From: a virus
DNA: 20,783 nt
Virus record (IMG/VR): IMGVR_UViG_3300031601_001390
Location: 1 to 20,783 of that record
Reading direction: 5' to 3' (one strand)
Shown: one piece after another, positions 7,225 through 19,099 of the stretch
Position numbering within the stretch: position 1 is the stretch's first letter
Layout of the letters: the number at the start of each line of letters is the position of its first letter
Translations under genes and position numbers: made by a program
The notes under the pieces: model-generated
Told to the model about the DNA's origin: nothing
Seen by the model: the letters and a program-made list of their open reading frames with translations, nothing else
Databases searched by the model: none

Positions 7225-7965
7225 ATGACCCTCAGAGTCGCCACATATGCACCTACCCGGCCGATTGAGTATCTCCTTGAGGGAGCGGCTGGGCAGACTA
7301 TTCAGTGTCCGATCCAATACGGCACTGATGGCATAGTGGCGCCTGACTCTGGGGTGATCACCATCACTAAGCCAGACGGCACCGCCTTTGTCTCTGGCGC
7401 CGAGGTCGTGGTGTCCTCCTCCATCGCGAGCTACACGCTGACACCTGCGGCGTCGGAGACTCTGGGGGATGGCTGGACTGTCGACTGGACTCTCACCTTT
7501 GCTGGCGTGGCCTACCCAACATATCGCTACAAGGCGATCCTCTGTGAGTATGTCCCGCACTGCCCGATCGCGCTGGGTGACCTCTACACTTATGAGCCCG
7601 AGCTCCGCCACAGGATCCCGCAGAGTCAAGGCGACCGCGGAGACAACACCGGCTGGCAGCCTCAGATTGACTCGGGCTACTACAGCCTGATCGAGTACCT
7701 CATCAGCAATGGCCGCCACGTCTGGGAGATCCGCGGGATGACCGGTACGCGTGAGTGGCTCCGCACTAAGATACTGATGCTGTGTTGTCGAGCGCTGGCG
7801 ACTAGCGATAATAGCGTCTGGGCTCGCAAGGCCACGGATTATCGCTACGAGCACCGCCTGGCCGTAGCCAATCTCAAGATCCAGTACACCTCCGATCCTG
7901 CATCTATACGCAGAGGGGGGTCTCCAGTTATTCGGCTCGCTCCTGTTGGGAGGCCAGTCTTTTGA
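7225..7965 (+). CDS. Putative head-tail connector protein with Ig-like N-terminus
   Basis: This 246-residue protein appears to have two parts. Residues 1-105 look like a beta sandwich (SGVITITKPDGTAFVSGAEV, SYTLTP, WTVDWTLTFAG), similar in pattern to Ig-like modules in phage proteins. Residues about 115-246 are helical and charged (YYSLIEYLISNGRHVWEIRG, EWLRTKILMLCCRALA), resembling small helical head-tail connectors. Two adjacent Cys lie in the helical part (MLCCRA). The ribosome binding site is weak (AGGA). The TGA stop lies inside the TTG start of the next gene. A connector or adaptor role is inferred from gene order, between head proteins and tail genes. Confidence 0.55.
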   Translation: MTLRVATYAPTRPIEYLLEGAAGQTIQCPIQYGTDGIVAPDSGVITITKPDGTAFVSGAEVVVSSSIASYTLTPAASETLGDGWTVDWTLTFAGVAYPTYRYKAILCEYVPHCPIALGDLYTYEPELRHRIPQSQGDRGDNTGWQPQIDSGYYSLIEYLISNGRHVWEIRGMTGTREWLRTKILMLCCRALATSDNSVWARKATDYRYEHRLAVANLKIQYTSDPASIRRGGSPVIRLAPVGRPVF

Positions 7966-8896: not shown

Positions 8897-9388
8897 ATGA
8901 GCGTTGTCAACGCTAATTTCACCGACGGTGTCATCACTACCACGGACGACGGCGGCAACAGCGCCACGCTACTCCTGGCGGAGGGAGATTTCTCCCTCAC
9001 CTATGACGCTCAGGATGGTCGTGAAGGCACCGTCAGCCAGACCAGAGGTAAGGTCAGCGGGGCCCGAAAGGCAGCGCGCCGACTAGGCTCTATCAGCATG
9101 TCGGCTAAGCTGGCCGCGCCAAACAGCAACTTCGCGAAGCTGGTCGCTGGTCAGACGGCTGGCTACGTCTCCGTGACGCTGGATCTCGGCGATCTCAATG
9201 GCGTCGACTGGGACTTCTCTTTTGATTACGGCGCCGAAGCTCGCGCATACTACGGTGAGGACGCCGTCTTTGGTGAGGTCACTGTCACCGAGAGCGACCC
9301 ATCCACGGTCGCGTTCACCGCCGAGCTGCTCGGCCCCATCTACTCTGCGGATTCCACCGGGGTAACCACCCTAGTGAGCTCCCGCTAG
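8897..9388 (+). CDS. Putative major tail (tube) protein
   Basis: This 163-residue protein has an excellent AGGAGG site before ATG 8897. It is rich in beta strands separated by Gly/Asp turns (TLLLAEGDFSLTYD, SVTLDLGDLNG, DFSFDYGA, VAFTAELLGP) and has a basic patch (GKVSGARKAARRLG, about 51-64), which suits a tube-forming subunit. It lies two genes before the tape measure and directly before the tail assembly chaperone, the usual place of the major tail protein in siphoviruses. It is at the small end for the family. The call comes from position and composition. Confidence 0.6.
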   Translation: MSVVNANFTDGVITTTDDGGNSATLLLAEGDFSLTYDAQDGREGTVSQTRGKVSGARKAARRLGSISMSAKLAAPNSNFAKLVAGQTAGYVSVTLDLGDLNGVDWDFSFDYGAEARAYYGEDAVFGEVTVTESDPSTVAFTAELLGPIYSADSTGVTTLVSSR

Positions 9389-9410: not shown

Positions 9411-9899
9411 ATGGAAGATATGAACATCGACGAAATCATGGCGGGCTTTGAGGTCGCCAAGGTGAAGATCGGGAAGCTTGAGGTCGAGCTCATCAAGCCT
9501 AGCCCGCTCTTCAGCCTGGCCGTCTCACACACTCAGACCCAGATTGACGGCGCGACCAAGGGGCAGAAACTAGCGTGGGCTGCGGCTTCACTCGCGGCAT
9601 GTTGGCCGAAGGATAGAGCCTGGCCGATCCAACCAAGGCCTCGCCCCTGGGGAGCCGGCGTAAAAGTTGAGACGTACGGCCACAAGGTCTTCGATGATCT
9701 TCTTCTCGGCGGCTGCGACCTCGGCGAGGTCCTCACCGCTGGGACTAGCGCGCACCGTCTCGCTGTCGAGTCGCTGCTCAGCCAGAGTGAGCTACAGGCA
9801 GCGCGGGATTTATTGCGAGCCCGTCTGGAAGATATCTCCAGGCGGCCTACAGAATCTGCCGAGACTACGGACAGCCCCCCGATTGGTGGGACGGACTAG
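9411..9899 (+). CDS. Tail assembly chaperone (zero-frame product, gpG-like)
   Basis: This 162-residue protein is preceded by GAGGAGG five bases from ATG 9411. It is soluble, begins with an acidic segment (MEDMNIDEIMAG) and contains a helical C-terminal region (LAVESLLSQSELQAARDLLRARLEDI, about 116-142). It sits between tail tube and tape measure, where lambda gpG and its equivalents lie. Those proteins bind the tape measure during tail assembly and are made both alone and as a longer frameshifted form. The last residues after about 143 are low-complexity (Ser/Thr/Pro/Gly), as expected if the functional C-terminus is in another frame. The frameshift product is given as a separate entry. Confidence 0.65.
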   Translation: MEDMNIDEIMAGFEVAKVKIGKLEVELIKPSPLFSLAVSHTQTQIDGATKGQKLAWAAASLAACWPKDRAWPIQPRPRPWGAGVKVETYGHKVFDDLLLGGCDLGEVLTAGTSAHRLAVESLLSQSELQAARDLLRARLEDISRRPTESAETTDSPPIGGTD

Positions 9900-9958
9900 A
9901 TAACGGCACACAGGGCACCCTCCTTGCGGACCTGGAGAGGCGCACGAGGGTGAAATGA
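9411..9958 (+). CDS. Tail assembly chaperone, -1 frameshift product (gpGT-like)
   Basis: A second frame is open from 9791 to its TGA at 9956-9958 and has no ATG, GTG or TTG start, so it can only be reached by frameshifting. Slipping back one base at C CCC CCG (9875-9881) joins the first 157 residues of the chaperone to a 25-residue extension, DWWDGLDNGTQGTLLADLER and five more residues, 182 in total. The extension is rich in Trp, acidic and basic residues, unlike the Ser/Thr/Pro zero-frame end. Its TGA overlaps the ATG of the next gene (ATGA at 9955-9958), the same junction used elsewhere in this operon; without the frameshift a 55-base gap would remain. Siphoviruses commonly make a gpGT-like protein this way. 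The exact slip site is inferred. Confidence 0.65.
9875..9881 (+). promoter_or_regulatory. Putative -1 ribosomal slippery site
   Basis: The heptamer C CCC CCG fits X XXY YYZ, with CCC and CCG read in the zero frame (Pro156, Pro157). After slipping back, CCC CCC allows re-pairing except at one third position. The overlapping -1 frame has its last upstream stop at 9788-9790, so a slip anywhere between 9791 and 9899 would work, but this is the best heptamer. Confidence 0.55.
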
Positions 9959-10481: not shown

Positions 10482-13373
10482 ATGGCAGCCAGCGACACAA
10501 TCAGGCTCACGTACACTGCGGAGATAAAGGATCTCAAGAAGAGGCTCGCGGAGATCCCAGAGGTCACCGCGGCCGAAGCTCGAAAGATGGTCAATGAGCT
10601 CAACAAGAGCGTCAAATCCGTTGAGCGCGGCCAGGACAGGATCGCCAAGGCCAGTCAAAAAGCTGGCAAGAGCATCTCGACGAACATGAGCAGCATCAAC
10701 GCGAGTGTCAACAGGGCGGCCATTGGGTTTGCCGCGCTCGGCACCGCTGCCGTCGCCGCGCTTGGTGTGGCCTCGTTGTCGGTGGGATCTGAATTCGAGT
10801 CGCAGATGGCCAAGGTGCAGGCCGTCACCGGCGCGACGTCCGAGGAGATGGCGCGGCTCGAAAAGAAGTCACGCGACATGGGTAAGACGACCCTATTCAG
10901 CGCGACCCAATCCGCGCAGGGCATAGAGGAACTCGGCAAGGCTGGCCTAACCACATCAGAGTCTATCACGGCTCTTGACTCTGCCCTGTTTTTTGCTGGT
11001 GCGACTGGTCAGGAGATCAACGAGAGCTCAACAGTTCTAGTCTCGACGATGAAGCAATTCGGCCTGGAGGCCTCAGACGCCACTAGGATCACTGACGTCT
11101 TCAGCCTTTCGATGAGGACCTCCCTCTTTGACGCCGAGTCACTAAGCGAGGCTATGAAGAAGGCGGGCACCACCGGCTCTGGCTTCGGCATGACGCTGGA
11201 AGAGACGACGGCCGCCCTGGCTGCGTTTGCCGATCTTGGCTTGGCTGGTTCCGTCATTGGTACCAATTTCAATTCGATGATGATCGCCGCGGCCAAGGGT
11301 ACCCAGCAAAGCGCCGCCGCGCTCAAAAAGTATGGGCTTGTCCAAGACGACATCAACCCAGAGCTGCACACCGCAGGTGAGCTCCTGCAGATCGTCGCAG
11401 ACCACAGCATCACCGCCGGCGACTCGATCCGGATCTTTGGCACGAAGGCTGGAGCCAACATCGCCAAGATCGGCGAGTCCATCAGATCTGGCAAGACCGA
11501 CATCGAGGGCTACACGGCGGCGCTGGTAGACTCGGCGGGCACCACGGCTAAGGCGTACGACATCATCTTGGACACGGTCTCAGCCAGGATGCAGATCGTG
11601 GGGTCGTCCGCTCAAGACCTGCTCATCACCATATTTGATTCTTACGCCGCACCGCTCACCGAGGTCCTTGATGAGATCCCTGCGTTCATCGGGCAGGTCA
11701 CTACCGCTTTCGAGGCCAGCTCCGATGAGATAGAGGCGCTGACCGGTGAGGCGCTAGGCAACCTCAGCGACTGGCTCAAGAACGAGGGGCCACAGTTTGC
11801 CGAGTTTGCCGCTGACACGGCCGTCGCGATTGCCGAGGTCTCGGTAGAACTCTCTAAGGTCCTGCCCTACCTCAAGGATATCTCGATCCTAGTGGGGACA
11901 GCGTTTGCGGCGGCCAAGGTCTACCAGATGGCTAAGGCTGTGAAGGCGGCCACGCTGGCTATCAGAGCGTTCGGGGTCTCTGGGGTAGCCGCTATGGGTC
12001 CCGTGGGCATTGCAATCGCCGGCACGGCTGCTGCGGCTGCTACTTTGATGATTATTTTTGATGGAATGGAAAAAAAGATCATAGCCCAAGAGCGCAGGGC
12101 CATGAGCTCGGGACAGGAGCGACTGAATCTGATCGATGCCGAGATGGCAGCGCTAGATAAAAGAGAAAAGCAGATCGAGATGTCGCTAATCCTCAATGGG
12201 CGCCTCCGCGAAAATGACGCTAAACAAAAAAAGGCACTAGTCGAGTGGGAGTGGGCCGCACAGGCCGCGACGGCAGTGTTCGGCGAGAAAAACGCAAAGA
12301 ACGCCAAAGACCTCCAAATGAAGGAAATGGCTGGAATTATCCGCAAGCAGCAGCTTCTCGGATATGAGCGACAGAACGAAGTAGAATCGATGGAGGCGCG
12401 AGCAGCCCACACTGCGGAGCTGAAGGAGCAGCAGAAAGCCGCCGAAAAACTAGCCAAGGAGCTGGGTAAGCCTATCGTGATCCCGACTTTCTCCGGCGAC
12501 GGGCCCGAAGGGCCAGAAGGGCCAGAGGACAATACCGAGCAGATCAAAGCCCAAGAGCAGCTCGCCGCCATGGCCCAGCGCGCCTCGGATGCCACGCTCA
12601 CCGCTAGCCAGCTTATTCAGATCGAGCGGGAGCGCGAGATCGACCAGCTGATGGAGCTGGGCAAGGTCAGCGGAGACATGGCTCTGGCAGAGGTGGCCGC
12701 CGCTGATGTCAGGGCAGAGGCAGAGGTTAGACTCGCAGATCTCCGGACGGAGCTGGCTAAGAGGCAGGACGCAGAGCGACAGGCAGCGCTTGACGCCAGC
12801 ATGGCCGCAGACGCTGAGCTCTACGACGCTAAGGTATCACTGGCCCAGAGCTCGCTAGGGACGATCGAGTCTCTTGCTCGTCGCGCGTCGCAGGCCGAGG
12901 GTGAGCACGCGATGCTCTCCTTCGTGATCGCGCAGGCCTCAGCCGTGAGTCAGATCGCGATCAACACCATAGTCGCGGCCTCTCGCTCACTTGCCGAGCT
13001 CGGTCCAATAGCTGGTCCGATTGCCGCAGTTGGCATGGGGATAGCAGGTGCTGGACAGGCGGCTGCGGTGCTGTCAGAGAGCCCTCCATCATTCTACACG
13101 GGTGGCTTCACATCTGCTGCACAGTCGCCGGACGCCATACCGGCGACCCTGCATCCCGACGAGGCGGTCCTCAACAAGACCGGCCGAAAGGAGATGGGAG
13201 ACGACGCCATCAGGCGTGCTAACCGTGGACAGTCTGACTCTACGCCCTCCATGACCTTTCGGGTCGACGGCCGAGAGTTTGGCTCGATCTCGGCTCGGCA
13301 AGCTCGGCAAGGTGGTAGACTGTCAGAGGAGCTAACACGTAGGTCAGGCCGGCTAGGCAGGAGAGCGAGATAA
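10482..13373 (+). CDS. Tail tape measure protein (TP901 type)
   Basis: This 963-residue protein is the largest in the tail core apart from the tip protein. Residues about 100-400 carry the TP901-type tape measure core: FESQMAKVQAVTGATSEEMA, then the AKKAGTTGSGFGMTLEETTA-like helical repeats, and NFNSMMIAAAKGTQQS. Hydrophobic stretches at about 79-102, 497-527 and 816-865 fit the membrane-interacting segments usual in this family. Residues about 540-670 and 690-780 are coiled-coil-like, separated by a GPEGPEGPE linker at 674-682. The C-terminus has the common SFYTGGFT and HPDEAVLNK segments. At about 0.15 nm per residue it would set a tail near 140 nm. GGGAG lies six bases before ATG 10482. 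Confidence 0.92.
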   Translation: MAASDTIRLTYTAEIKDLKKRLAEIPEVTAAEARKMVNELNKSVKSVERGQDRIAKASQKAGKSISTNMSSINASVNRAAIGFAALGTAAVAALGVASLSVGSEFESQMAKVQAVTGATSEEMARLEKKSRDMGKTTLFSATQSAQGIEELGKAGLTTSESITALDSALFFAGATGQEINESSTVLVSTMKQFGLEASDATRITDVFSLSMRTSLFDAESLSEAMKKAGTTGSGFGMTLEETTAALAAFADLGLAGSVIGTNFNSMMIAAAKGTQQSAAALKKYGLVQDDINPELHTAGELLQIVADHSITAGDSIRIFGTKAGANIAKIGESIRSGKTDIEGYTAALVDSAGTTAKAYDIILDTVSARMQIVGSSAQDLLITIFDSYAAPLTEVLDEIPAFIGQVTTAFEASSDEIEALTGEALGNLSDWLKNEGPQFAEFAADTAVAIAEVSVELSKVLPYLKDISILVGTAFAAAKVYQMAKAVKAATLAIRAFGVSGVAAMGPVGIAIAGTAAAAATLMIIFDGMEKKIIAQERRAMSSGQERLNLIDAEMAALDKREKQIEMSLILNGRLRENDAKQKKALVEWEWAAQAATAVFGEKNAKNAKDLQMKEMAGIIRKQQLLGYERQNEVESMEARAAHTAELKEQQKAAEKLAKELGKPIVIPTFSGDGPEGPEGPEDNTEQIKAQEQLAAMAQRASDATLTASQLIQIEREREIDQLMELGKVSGDMALAEVAAADVRAEAEVRLADLRTELAKRQDAERQAALDASMAADAELYDAKVSLAQSSLGTIESLARRASQAEGEHAMLSFVIAQASAVSQIAINTIVAASRSLAELGPIAGPIAAVGMGIAGAGQAAAVLSESPPSFYTGGFTSAAQSPDAIPATLHPDEAVLNKTGRKEMGDDAIRRANRGQSDSTPSMTFRVDGREFGSISARQARQGGRLSEELTRRSGRLGRRAR

Positions 13374-16300
13374 TGGGCATAGATAAATCAGGTGACAGTC
13401 TTCGAGGGATCCTAGTCCCTGACTCTAGGCGCGAGTTCTGGGCTGGGCAATCCGGCGAATTTTCCGCCGGAGCCAAGATCTCCAAGCTCAACTCAATGAG
13501 CCCGATAGCCGGGATCCCGCTGCCGAGCCAGAGCGGAGCTATGGGCCTCAGGGCGAGCGGTCCGCAGACCAATATCCTCTACACGCTCACCAATAAGGGA
13601 GGTCTCCCTGGCACAGACGAGTGTGGGATGCTCTGGAGCGACACCGACGGATCTGGTTACCGTGGTTGCGATCTGCCTAACGTCTCTACGGCCTTCGAGC
13701 CCTTGCCTCAAGCCGGCAAGGTGCTTAGGACGCCCCATATCAAGGCCCTGCCAAACGGTAAGCTCATCAAGACCTACTGGAGTGACGGCGTAGGTGTAGA
13801 GGTACGAGTCAGGGATCCCGACACAACTACCTGGGGCGCTGCTGTACTAGTGCACGCTGAGACCGCCACGAATCCACGGCCCTGCCTCCAGATCATGCCA
13901 GGTGGGAGGGTCCACCTCTACGCCTTTGAAGCGCTGGACGCGACCACGCTCCAGATCATCCTTTATTACTCGGACGACGACGGGGCCACTTGGGGAAATG
14001 TGGGGTACGTGCTGGCCGACTCGATAGATCTCGCCACCTACACCAATTATTACCGCATCAGGACTGGCTACATCAACGGTCAGATGATCATGATGCTGCA
14101 CCTTAAGTTGCCAGCGACGCCAGCAGCCCGAGACGACGTCCTCTCTCAGTGGGCTAGCTCGGACGGTGGGCACTACTTCTCCGAGGTGTACACTCAGAGC
14201 GGCGTCGATGAGGACAACGCAGCCGCTAGCCCAGAGATAGTCATAGACCAGGGCGTCATCCTGGTGGGCTATATCAGAGCCACTGATAACGGTCATGGCA
14301 CCGACCAGATCCACGCAGAGTGGAGGCGACTCGGCACGGCGTGGTACCGCTACGACTACGCTCCGGTGCTCGGCACCACCTACGCCACCGCCGCGGCTAG
14401 GGAGTGGGGCGTACTCACCGCCGCAAAGATAGACGCCTCATTTTTTGCTTTCTGGGCCGACGATGATGGGAGCCTATATTGCACGGGCAAGGACTACACC
14501 ACGGGCGCAGCGTCAATTATGCGCTCCATCGATCACGGAGCCACATGGATAGGCACAGGGACGACAGCACGCTTCACTTCATTAGGTCAGTGCTGGTGGG
14601 ATCACAACTCGACCGCTGATATACCGCTCCACTTCGCGGCCGTTGCTTGGCGGGGCAAGTCCGTAATAGTCACCGGCTGGAAGCGAGCAGGAGCCCAAGA
14701 GGACGCGATAGGTGTCGTCTACTTGGGCGGCTGGCAAACAACGACAATGGCAAACAGGACCTCTATCCTGCGGCCTACGCACAGGAGAGGCTGGGAGCGT
14801 CCTGGCTACTCTACATCTATGCCAGACGGCACCGGCGTTTGGGCCAAGGCTGGAGCTGGTCTAGCGGTTATAAGTGCAGACATCTATCTTGTCTTGACGC
14901 CAACGGCCGTTCAGACTGTCACCTACAGCACGTCACCTGTCGCCACTCTCGGCCAGGGCCTCAATGCAGAGTGGGCTCTGCAGCGGGCAGCAGGCGTTGG
15001 CTCGTCCCCACGGATGCAGTTGGAGCTCACCGAGGCAGGGCTACCGCAGAAGGGGTATGGCATCTATGTCAAGCTCACGGACACGCACGCCCAGCTCTGG
15101 GACATGCATGTGTTCCCTGCTATGATCAGTGAGGTGCTACTCCCTGACACCTCCACCGGTTTTTATCGGATCAGGATGGCCCTTCGGTCTGACAACGGGA
15201 GCGCTCAGATAGCACCGCATGACACCACGGCAGACACTGTCTGGACTACCATCGGCAGATCCACCGCACTCACTGACAGTGGGACCCACAGCGGTAATCT
15301 AATCGAGTGGGGCATGGACGGAGGCGGGACGAGCGCCTGGATCGAGTGGCATTACTCGGCCGGCTCCTACTCATCAGCGGCTACTTGGACGGCCGGTCAA
15401 GCCACGCGCTCTCGCTATCCTCGGCCCGTGCTGGGATCTCCTGTCTGGTTTGGCCTGGGTGTCTCCTTGTCGGCTGACACAGGCCCTACCGTAGTAGGGG
15501 ACGAGTGGGTGACGACTCCGACAGCAGAGTATCCGGTGAGCAATTTGGACCCAACGGTCGAGCCAAGCCCGAGACACCCCTGGAGGTCAAGGCTCTATAA
15601 CGATATGACCTCGTTGGCCATTGATGAGATCAGGCTCGCCTGGACGCTCGGCGACGTAGATGAGTACGGGATGAGCAGCCTATGGGGCATGTGGATAGAC
15701 GGCGCTAACTGCGCAGGACTCGGCATCTACCTCTACTATGGAGGGGCATGGCATCATGTCAAGACTACCGGGTACGACACCTTCTCCGGGGTTAAGGCTG
15801 GTAGCACCCTGAGAGTGAATATCGGCGGGGCCGAGTCAGGAGGTAATAAGTGGCGTAGAGGTGAACTCGATGGGGCTGGCGTTGAGTCGGTCACAATGAT
15901 TGTCAACGCCTCAGACTGGGTCGGCAAGATAAAAACCAATCGCCCGGGCTCTACTTTTATTGACATCCCAAACAAGTCGATGAGATTCGCGGCCACGATA
16001 GAAGGCAACAGTGTGCTCTTAGTGGCCGCTCCGATTGTGAGGCTCTGGCCGAAGAGGCATCTGATCCTCATTAATCTGGACGACTACGACAAGGAGATCC
16101 AGGGCGTTCAGATCAGGATCACCAAGCAGCCGAGGGTGAGGCCGCGGTCACCGGGCAACCCCTATGATGGATATTTCGAGATCGGGAAGGTGGTCTTTGG
16201 GCCCATCTGGGCCTGGGGGCGTGACTACTCTTGGGGTCGCTCCATTGGATACGAGGTCTCGCAAGACATAGTCACCGCAGAGGACGGCACTAGAATAGTC

Positions 16301-16666
16301 CGCGCTCTCGCTCCTATGCGGCGGATAGTCGAGATGAGCTGGGCCGACGGGGTAGATGAGTGCTCACACCTGTCCGAGGATCTACCCGACTACGTGTCGT
16401 TCAAGGATGCTGGCTCAGCTGTCTCGTTCCTCAACGACACTCCTCTAGATATCGCCGACGAGGTGAGGCAGCTGCAGGGTGCTTATACGCCCGTCGTCTA
16501 CGTGCCCATTATCCCGAGGGACAGCACCGGAGACTATGACCAGTGGGGGCAAGGTGGTGTCTATGGCCGCATTACCGAGAGCGTGAGCGTTGACACAGTG
16601 CTAGGTCAAGAGGGTGTCGACGAGCTAATGAGACTCTCTAAGCTCGTGATTGAGGAGGAGATCTAA
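13373..16666 (+). CDS. Tail-tip protein with sialidase-like Asp-box repeats
   Basis: This 1097-residue protein starts one base into the tape measure stop (TAATG). Its N-terminal half carries repeated Asp-boxes (S-x-D-x-G-x-x-W/F): SDDDGATW at 200-207, SSDGGHYF at 262-269 and SIDHGATW at 385-392, with a degenerate ADDDGSLY at 362-369. These mark blades of sialidase-like beta-propellers, so residues about 110-470 probably form a propeller that could bind or cut surface glycans. The C-terminal half (about 500-1000) is beta-rich and Trp-rich, compatible with lectin-like or tail-tip domains. Placed after the tape measure, it is a good candidate for a distal tail or receptor-binding protein. No sialidase arginine triad is assigned, so enzyme activity is not claimed. 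Confidence 0.75.
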   Translation: MGIDKSGDSLRGILVPDSRREFWAGQSGEFSAGAKISKLNSMSPIAGIPLPSQSGAMGLRASGPQTNILYTLTNKGGLPGTDECGMLWSDTDGSGYRGCDLPNVSTAFEPLPQAGKVLRTPHIKALPNGKLIKTYWSDGVGVEVRVRDPDTTTWGAAVLVHAETATNPRPCLQIMPGGRVHLYAFEALDATTLQIILYYSDDDGATWGNVGYVLADSIDLATYTNYYRIRTGYINGQMIMMLHLKLPATPAARDDVLSQWASSDGGHYFSEVYTQSGVDEDNAAASPEIVIDQGVILVGYIRATDNGHGTDQIHAEWRRLGTAWYRYDYAPVLGTTYATAAAREWGVLTAAKIDASFFAFWADDDGSLYCTGKDYTTGAASIMRSIDHGATWIGTGTTARFTSLGQCWWDHNSTADIPLHFAAVAWRGKSVIVTGWKRAGAQEDAIGVVYLGGWQTTTMANRTSILRPTHRRGWERPGYSTSMPDGTGVWAKAGAGLAVISADIYLVLTPTAVQTVTYSTSPVATLGQGLNAEWALQRAAGVGSSPRMQLELTEAGLPQKGYGIYVKLTDTHAQLWDMHVFPAMISEVLLPDTSTGFYRIRMALRSDNGSAQIAPHDTTADTVWTTIGRSTALTDSGTHSGNLIEWGMDGGGTSAWIEWHYSAGSYSSAATWTAGQATRSRYPRPVLGSPVWFGLGVSLSADTGPTVVGDEWVTTPTAEYPVSNLDPTVEPSPRHPWRSRLYNDMTSLAIDEIRLAWTLGDVDEYGMSSLWGMWIDGANCAGLGIYLYYGGAWHHVKTTGYDTFSGVKAGSTLRVNIGGAESGGNKWRRGELDGAGVESVTMIVNASDWVGKIKTNRPGSTFIDIPNKSMRFAATIEGNSVLLVAAPIVRLWPKRHLILINLDDYDKEIQGVQIRITKQPRVRPRSPGNPYDGYFEIGKVVFGPIWAWGRDYSWGRSIGYEVSQDIVTAEDGTRIVRALAPMRRIVEMSWADGVDECSHLSEDLPDYVSFKDAGSAVSFLNDTPLDIADEVRQLQGAYTPVVYVPIIPRDSTGDYDQWGQGGVYGRITESVSVDTVLGQEGVDELMRLSKLVIEEEI

Positions 16667-18348
16667 TGCCAGCCCCAGCAGGACTAACGTCACCACCTGT
16701 CTGCCTTATGACCCTCACCTTCGCCGGCAAGATCTGGCGCGTTGCTAGTGAGCCAGTGAGCGTCACCGACAGAGAGGGGATCGCGCACCTCTACCGAGGA
16801 GGCCTGCCTACCATGGACCTCCGAGATGAGATCTCATGGCTCGCTGACGGGGAGCCTCCCGAGACAGACGTAGAGTGGATCCTACCCGCTGACGTGGCCT
16901 TGCTGATCTCGCAGGGTCATGTGCTCGATGGGGCTGATGTGGAGGTCTCACTCTGGCGACGGGGCGATCCCTACGAGCAGCGTCTAGTGATGATATCTGG
17001 CCAGGCCGCCGATCCTGTCTACGGTACGCTCGGGACTTCCACGACGTTCAGACTTAGCTCTAGCGCCAGTATTGCGACGATGAGCAACGAGCACCCCGAC
17101 CCAGCGTGGATCGTCAGCGACGCAACTCTGGACTACACGAACTCGGTAGACGAGGGCAACTATTACCCCACTGTCTTTGGTCGGCCTGGGGTATTTTATC
17201 GAACAGGGACCAAGACGCGAGGCAGGGCCACGCCGGTAATCCTGATCAACATCAACGATCTTAACGACGTTGAGCCCAACGACTGGTCTGTCGACCCCGC
17301 CACCGGGAGCTATTACCTGATCGCCAATGGCGCCGAGAATATAAGAGCAAAGCGGGTCAGGATCCACGACGTCACAGATGGGATCTCTGACTTCGTGCAA
17401 GTGTATCGAGCGCAGGATCTTGTCGGCAATAAGATATGGATAGGCCGGTCGACACCCACGCCCGGTATACCTGCCGTCGCCGGCCACGTCTACTACGCCA
17501 GTTGGGACGACGAGGACGATGAGGTGGGGGGCGCCATCCTTGCACGCGACAAGAGCGGCGAGGTGATGGAGGGCGGCGGCGAGCTCCTGCACTGGGCGCT
17601 CGGGCTGACGGACCTACCTATCCAGTGGGATCTCACTGGAGCGTCACGCCGAGCTCTGGACCAGTACCACCTCGCCGGGTATTGGGATGAGGCCTGTCAG
17701 GCCTACGAGTGGATCCGGGATAACTTGCTCCCGATCCTGCCGGTCTCGCTCAAGTGGTCGGCTCAAGGTCTCTATCCTGTGGTCTGGCGACACTGGGCCA
17801 CAGAGGCAGACGCCGTCGCACACCTTGAGGATGGGCGTAACTGCTCGGTCTATGACGACGTGGTGACCAAGGGCAGGGAGGACGTGGTCAATAAGGTCTC
17901 GCTATCTTACGCCCTGGATCCTCATGAGTCGGGGCGGTACCGTGAGATCGCTGTGTGGGGATCTGATCAGGTGACAGAGTTCTTCGTAGCCCCCCCAATC
18001 TTGGGCCCCATCGAGATGCCCCACGGACTCTATGAGGTAGAGAGCACATCAGAGGCGACGAGGGTGTCAGCCAGGACATACGGTACTCACACGCTGGAGC
18101 TTACTAGCGACGTCATCTGGGATCGCGCCACAGCCGAGCTTGTCGTCGCATGGATCGTGGCGGCCAGGGCCAAGCCTTACCAGATCTACTCACTGAGCGG
18201 GGAATGGAAGATCGGGGGCATCAACGCCGGCGACGTGATCATTATCACCTCTGCCAAGCATCATCTCGACCGACGGGTGGCCCATGTCAGGTCGGTTACA
18301 TGGCGAGGCATCAATGCCGTTAAGATATATGTTATGATATTCTCGTAA
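16666..18348 (+). CDS. Baseplate hub / tail-associated protein
   Basis: This 560-residue protein is coupled to the previous gene by a TAATG overlap. The N-terminal half is beta-rich (TLTFAGKIWRVASEPVSV). The C-terminal part ends in GDVIIITSAKHHLDRRVAHV, a pattern seen in tail hub proteins of the gpJ or gp27-like group, where a final domain closes with a short loop and strand. An acidic stretch (YYASWDDEDDEVGG, about 278-291) lies in the middle. Order after tape measure and large tip protein, and before lysis genes, suggests a hub that closes the tail tube. No peptidase domain is evident. Function inferred from order and the C-terminal pattern. Confidence 0.6.
   Translation: MPAPAGLTSPPVCLMTLTFAGKIWRVASEPVSVTDREGIAHLYRGGLPTMDLRDEISWLADGEPPETDVEWILPADVALLISQGHVLDGADVEVSLWRRGDPYEQRLVMISGQAADPVYGTLGTSTTFRLSSSASIATMSNEHPDPAWIVSDATLDYTNSVDEGNYYPTVFGRPGVFYRTGTKTRGRATPVILININDLNDVEPNDWSVDPATGSYYLIANGAENIRAKRVRIHDVTDGISDFVQVYRAQDLVGNKIWIGRSTPTPGIPAVAGHVYYASWDDEDDEVGGAILARDKSGEVMEGGGELLHWALGLTDLPIQWDLTGASRRALDQYHLAGYWDEACQAYEWIRDNLLPILPVSLKWSAQGLYPVVWRHWATEADAVAHLEDGRNCSVYDDVVTKGREDVVNKVSLSYALDPHESGRYREIAVWGSDQVTEFFVAPPILGPIEMPHGLYEVESTSEATRVSARTYGTHTLELTSDVIWDRATAELVVAWIVAARAKPYQIYSLSGEWKIGGINAGDVIIITSAKHHLDRRVAHVRSVTWRGINAVKIYVMIFS
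18330..18338 (+). promoter_or_regulatory. Candidate extended -10 promoter for lysis genes
   Basis: TGTTATGAT (18330-18338) fits TGnTATAAT with one mismatch, inside an AT-rich island at the end of the hub gene (18319-18342), which stands out from GC-rich surroundings. There is no -35 match; extended -10 promoters can work without one. The predicted start would give a leader of about 30 bases before the endolysin ATG at 18378. Confidence 0.3.
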
Positions 18349-18377: not shown

Positions 18378-18872
18378 ATGAGATCCATAGTAGCCATAGT
18401 CATCCATCACTCTGTGAGCTCCACCTGCACTGATAGAGAGGAGATCACGCGCTGGCATAAGCACCGCGGCTTTCGCACGATCGGCTATCACTACCTAGTG
18501 CGCCTCGACCACGGCCAGGCCATCATCGAGAGAGGACGCGCCGAAGACGAGAGGGGGGCGCACCTTGTCCCGCAGTACGGCGCGGAGATCTCCAACAGCA
18601 ACTCGCTGGGGATCTGTATCGCTGGCAATCACGAGATCAACGATCCCGACGGTCGACTCTGGACGCAGGCTCTCGAGCTCGCCGCGGAGCTCTGCCACCA
18701 CCACCTACTCACCGAAGATCAGGTCTACGGGCACAACGAGTTGAGATCGACGCTCTGTCCAGGCACCAAGATGGACATGGAGCTGTTCCGCGGGGAGCTT
18801 CACGATCTCCTCGATGCTCCGATGGACCTGCGAGAGCGCGGCACAACTACCTCACCTCTGGCCAGGCCATGA
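18378..18872 (+). CDS. N-acetylmuramoyl-L-alanine amidase (endolysin)
   Basis: This 164-residue protein belongs to the Amidase_2 / T7-lysozyme-like fold, which cleaves the bond between N-acetylmuramic acid and L-alanine in peptidoglycan. Visible signatures are IVIHHS with the first zinc ligand at H10, GYHYLVRLDHG at 36-46 (with the Tyr of T7 lysozyme's active site at Y37), SNSLGICIAGNHE at 74-86, and YGHNELRSTLCPG with zinc ligands H119 and C127. The length matches the bare catalytic domain: no cell-wall-binding domain and no signal peptide, so export must rely on a holin. The ribosome binding site is poor. It overlaps the holin candidate by four bases (ATGA). Confidence 0.9.
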   Translation: MRSIVAIVIHHSVSSTCTDREEITRWHKHRGFRTIGYHYLVRLDHGQAIIERGRAEDERGAHLVPQYGAEISNSNSLGICIAGNHEINDPDGRLWTQALELAAELCHHHLLTEDQVYGHNELRSTLCPGTKMDMELFRGELHDLLDAPMDLRERGTTTSPLARP

Positions 18873-19099
18873 GCGACGACGAGGTCACAGTGCGAGAGTT
18901 TGTTGAGCTCGCTGGCTCTATAGACCTGCTCACCGTCAAGATGGACGTCTTCATTCTGACCAACAAGGCCGAGCACGACGCCATCACAGCGGCGATGGAG
19001 CGAGGAGCTCAAGACGCGCTCAAAATCAAGCTCGCCCTGCTAGGGAGTGGGACGAGCATTGTGCTGGTCATCGTGACTGGCGTTCTTGCGCTCTTATAA
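18869..19099 (+). CDS. Putative holin, single C-terminal TM segment
   Basis: This 76-residue protein is directly coupled to the endolysin. Residues 1-52 are acidic and amphipathic (MSDDEVTVREFVELAGSIDL, then KAEHDAITAAMERGAQDA), likely helical or coiled coil. Residues about 58-76 are a hydrophobic segment (GSGTSIVLVIVTGVLALL) that ends the protein. The layout resembles XhlA-like lysis membrane proteins: a soluble N-terminal helix and one C-terminal membrane helix. Its place next to the amidase supports a holin role, making membrane lesions that release the endolysin. Proteins this short cannot be assigned by motif; a membrane-anchored accessory is the alternative. Confidence 0.65.
   Translation: MSDDEVTVREFVELAGSIDLLTVKMDVFILTNKAEHDAITAAMERGAQDALKIKLALLGSGTSIVLVIVTGVLALL

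Follow-up and report, generated by a model that had tools for sequence, protein, structure and literature searches.

The window analysed here is the whole of an IMG/VR virus record of 20,783 bases, and its tail gene region raises the question of where, and by what signal, ribosomes would pass from the zero frame of a small gene upstream of the tape measure gene into the overlapping -1 frame. The preliminary description of this DNA had proposed a programmed -1 frameshift of the G/GT type at C CCC CCG (9875-9881). The comparative evidence for a frameshift of this type is strong, but not for that site; judging from the related loci, the slip site is most likely G GAT TTA at 9806-9812 (Table 1). 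Comparison and prediction provided conserved -1 coding, a homologous heptamer, a hairpin and, in the window, no other usual start codon. We consider it very probable that the locus carries a lambda-type tail assembly chaperone gene, in which a -1 slip at G_GAU_UUA, aided by the hairpin, yields both G and GT.

Table 1. Features of the G/T region and its neighbours (positions in the window).
Feature	Positions	Strand	Basis
Probable major tail (tube) protein	8897-9388	+	Position only
Gene G, putative zero-frame tail assembly chaperone, 162 aa	9411-9899	+	ORF; same-position homologues in L004, L006, L034, L036 and others
Putative slippery heptamer G_GAT_TTA	9806-9812	+	Homologous heptamer in the window and 35 relatives
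T domain in the -1 frame (GFIASPSGRYLQAAYRICRDYGQPPDWWDGLDNGTQGTLLADLERRTRVK)	9806-9958	+	Conserved in relatives; AF2 three-helix model; purifying selection in relatives
Predicted stimulatory hairpin	9821-9845	+	-16.3 kcal/mol; z -3.2 and -3.1 (35- and 36-nt segments)
C_CCC_CCG, the site proposed earlier; judged a chance run inside T codons CAG CCC CCC	9875-9881	+	Not conserved; chance frequency
Next gene, 174 aa	9955-10479	+	Homologous ORFs after GT in L004 and L006
Tail tape measure protein	10482-13373	+	PHROG 1533, E 1.4e-66; Pfam PhageMin_Tail, E 3.1e-34

Relatives of the locus were found through several of its proteins. G alone returned none in a single-protein scan or in tblastn against phage isolates, nor did the 16666-18348 protein in a single-protein scan, and the terminase had no tblastn match among phage isolates; the G proteins of two relatives gave nothing or one insignificant match. 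A search with the tape measure protein led to L002 and one with the terminase to L004-L007; many more came from searches with alignments of two proteins, the terminase and the 7225-7965 product, and three MAG contigs were added to these. From four -1 frames we made a T profile, which then recovered the domain from dozens of loci; almost without exception it lay at -1 to an upstream G ORF. T stood at -1 to G, with a homologous start, in relatives recovered by terminase, connector or tape-measure homology. The three MAG contigs, L103, L104 and L105, are terminase relatives in bins called Gammaproteobacteria, Gaiellales and Pseudomonadota, respectively; the contig is long (315 kb) for L105 only, and what the two short contigs hint about the host may be binning noise.

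The -1 frame of the window is open from 9791, after the TGA at 9788-9790, to the TGA at 9956-9958, and encodes ...YRICRDYGQPPDWWDGLDNGTQGTLLADLERRTRVK*. The preliminary description saw no start codon and a plausible protein end in this frame; indeed, no ATG, GTG or TTG precedes the conserved domain, and the frame is real coding sequence. Since it is kept across many relatives, its openness is far beyond chance. The low-complexity end of the zero frame, also remarked on there, is due to the late G stop of the window. Conservation of the -1 frame in related phages, proposed at the same time as a check, was borne out. For the region beyond the G stop in close pairs of relatives, some of which have a member in common, pN/pS was 0.27 in the T frame versus 1.67 and 2.39 in the other two frames, and the relatives' T frame thus shows the signature of purifying selection. 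Conserved T begins at 9806 with a Gly/Lys-Phe pair encoded by GGA TTT, GGG TTT or AAA TTT, that is, 69 nt upstream of C CCC CCG. An AF2 model of the 50-residue T segment (pLDDT 90.0) consists of three helices (6-21, 25-30 and 33-48).

The preliminary description had also raised a base error here. A base lost in assembly could in principle have broken a single long gene into two frames; in favour of this are the C6 homopolymer and the origin of the record, a virus contig of a public collection. However, the same -1 relation of G and T occurs in dozens of separate contigs that have no C-run there, which contradicts this explanation and leaves it vanishingly unlikely.

The start of the -1 T frame falls on one homologous heptamer in all 36 distinct loci, which are the window and 35 relatives and form 21 groups at less than 75% T identity. 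The commonest version is A AAT TTT (11 loci), followed by G GGT TTC (nine), G GAT TTC (six), G GAT TTT (three) and G GGA AAC (two); five are singletons, namely A AAT TTC, A AGT TTC, G GGT TTT, A GGT TTT and the G GAT TTA of the window. The strict form X_XXY_YYZ is found in 24 of the 36. The window heptamer deviates from it, its Y triplet being identical and its X triplet, GGA, non-identical, and its last codon, UUA, differs from that of every relative. At the X_XX position, G_GA is recognised as an intermediate class, and pea enation mosaic virus shifts at G_GAU_UUU (PMC5009743). Of the 35 relatives, 34 have their G stop 13-43 nt beyond the heptamer; only in the window and L103 does the zero-frame stop lie at +91 nt. 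The window is therefore among the least typical members of the set. Outside these loci, L067 may have a counterpart, A AAA AAA at roughly the expected place, and the more distant L007 has, by eye, C CCT TTC at 10932 together with a T-like -1 frame.

Codon choice at the heptamer was examined next to its pattern. The Phe codon was TTT in all 19 groups with Phe, for which the product of the background fractions is about 1e-10; this was not taken as proof, because a zero-frame Phe would force TTT too. The tie was broken by the two G GGA AAC loci, L010 and L103, in which F is replaced by K in the -1 frame and by N in the zero frame while the slippery pattern is retained. Given that both frames change their residue and the pattern is kept, the comparison argues for selection acting on the nucleotides of the heptamer rather than on the protein.

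These results bear directly on a slip at C CCC CCG. The motif is indeed present in register within the open -1 region, and a slip there would leave the frame open to 9958; yet conserved T coding has already begun upstream of it, the motif is absent from the relatives, and in 34 of the 35 relatives slippage at this position is impossible since the G frame ends before it. L103, which shares the late G stop of the window, has no C-run. Slippage at the C-run would also drop helix 1 (residues 6-21) of the modelled T, and the fold that follows it is weaker than that of shuffled sequences (z +1.2). In-frame CCCCCC recurs at 17991, and the genes of the window contain 12 strict in-frame XXXYYYZ heptamers; we judged C CCC CCG to be an unremarkable run, not above chance. 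A slip at this site is accordingly very improbable. The puzzle noted earlier, of a C-rich site that lacks an A/U-rich second codon, disappears because G GAT TTA is the better site. Restricting a search to strict XXXYYYZ in the overlap would single out the C-run and overlook the probable true site.

Stimulatory elements were compared at the homologous heptamer. In the window, a stem of 9 bp (9821-9829/9837-9845) with a 7-nt loop is predicted 8 nt after G GAT TTA. Over 22 loci, the downstream fold was stronger than in-gene controls (p 0.002, an approximate value, the loci being related), and several A AAT TTT loci had no downstream structure. SD-like GAGG lies 17 nt upstream of the heptamer in 15 of the 21 groups; upstream of the window heptamer no such element was found, a value of -4.5 kcal/mol there being reached in 21% of in-gene controls. 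It is conceivable, although for both parts together we put it somewhat short of an even chance, that the homologous shift site has changed among A AAU UUU, G GGU UUC, G GAU UUN and G GGA AAC yet stayed slippery, and that the lineage of the window has lost the SD-like stimulator and relies on the downstream hairpin. If so, these phages would form a natural series that keeps the chaperone ratio while exchanging recoding signals. The relocated slip site in any case comes with a set of natural variants of the heptamer, all at a single homologous position.

A different route to T would be separate initiation, or termination-reinitiation, in place of frameshifting. The T of the window lacks a usual initiation codon of its own, which is not so in every relative: about half have an ATG, GTG or TTG in the T frame several codons past the heptamer, and in some of these T might also start independently. 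In L002 the SD-like GAGGAGGGG accompanies an ATG located 36 nt past the heptamer; the G stop lies in a TAATG in the L029 group, and ATG ATG occurs at +27/+30 in L008. On the other hand, no ATG, GTG or TTG is present in the T frame near the heptamer in the window, in L004, in the L017 group or in most A AAT TTT loci, yet the heptamer is retained across the set. As a substitute for frameshifting, separate initiation is thus highly unlikely. The T-frame ATG codons at or near the G stop are located at 7311 in L002, at about 9230 in L029 and at 10019-10024 in L008, and T might additionally be made alone in these three.

We infer slippage itself, its rate and the binding roles, and the products of the frameshift at G_GAU_UUA are given here as predictions. 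Most ribosomes would read gene G to its end. A minority would slip back by one base with GAU and UUA in the P and A sites, helped by the hairpin, so that zero-frame GAT TTA re-pairs to GGA TTT; they would then read on at -1 from position 9812 until the UGA at 9956. The resulting GT, 182 aa, would comprise 9411-9812 followed by 9812-9955, with the last 28 residues of G replaced by 48 that contain the three-helix T domain. If lambda is a guide, binding of the tape measure protein would fall to the G part and recruitment of tail tube subunits to the T part; G and GT would be made in a set ratio, and both would be absent from virions. A slip at 9806-9812 predicts the GT peptides DLIASPSGR, YLQAAYR and DYGQPPDWWDGLDNGTQGTLLADLER, whereas one at C CCC CCG would instead predict PTESAETTDSPPDWW... 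and also PTESAETTDSPPDWWDGLDNGTQGTLLADLER.

The chaperone identity of G is suggested by its position, by the two-frame design and by a few weak family matches within the set of G proteins. A weak match to PHROG 3860 ('tail assembly chaperone') came from two of 30 G proteins (best E 0.0026) and one to Pfam DUF7426 (PF24201) from three of 30 (best E 0.0027); the window's own G matches neither. In PHROG and Pfam HMM searches, it had no significant family match to a protein of known function. Its AF2 model has a pLDDT of 88.9, and PDB profile, Foldseek and VIA-align searches gave no credible match and no significant fold relative of known function, the fold searches bringing up only weak listings of N15 GT and of the chaperone of Arthrobacter phage Kitkat.

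The arrangement resembles that of lambda in several respects. The gene lies shortly 5' of the tape measure gene and would give a short G and a longer -1 fusion, a slippery-class heptamer is located near the 3' end of G, and a second ORF overlaps this end in a shifted frame under protein-level selection, as judged in the relatives. In contrast to lambda gpG/gpGT, to which no sequence similarity was detected, the slip site of the window is G_GAT_TTA, that of lambda being of the GGGAAAG type, and GT and the tape measure gene are separated by one extra gene. This is very probably a known kind of recoding signal, the lambda-type gpG/gpGT, in a new example from an uncultured phage lineage, and the comparison defines the T domain of a lineage without an isolate match in the collection searched. 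In the reviewed lambda mechanism, the short G and the longer -1 fusion share their N terminus (PMC5009743). With regard to its heptamer, the window is like the sites of umbraviruses, dianthoviruses, mesoniviruses and insect-specific flaviviruses, in which X_XX is G_GA, and a YYY of UUU is shared at least with pea enation mosaic virus (PMC5009743). Unlike those systems, which belong to RNA viruses and eukaryotic ribosomes, Z is A here and the site lies in a tail gene of a dsDNA phage.

At the 3' junction of T, the stop (TGA, 9956-9958) and the next start (ATG, 9955-9957) overlap as ATGA, as had been described. The same overlap had been ascribed to other genes of the operon; at the 13373 and 16666 junctions, however, the overlap is of one base, stop and start sharing an A. 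The 174-aa gene is the one gene between GT and the tape measure gene, and L004 and L006 have a counterpart as well. On the 5' side, a homologue of the 8897-9388 product, about 49% identical, is encoded directly 5' of G in L004 and L006; PHROG and Pfam searches with this product returned no credible family match.

The gene at 10482-13373 is certainly the tape measure gene. Its DNA is 89% identical to that of L002 over 10728-12142 and 12351-13553, while the upstream G/T region has no DNA match. From this pattern, the tape measure gene seems to have been exchanged between phages with different chaperone modules, with a break near its 5' end. Farther downstream, inspection by eye suggests an amidase-like endolysin gene (18378-18872) followed by a small holin-like ORF (18869-19099).
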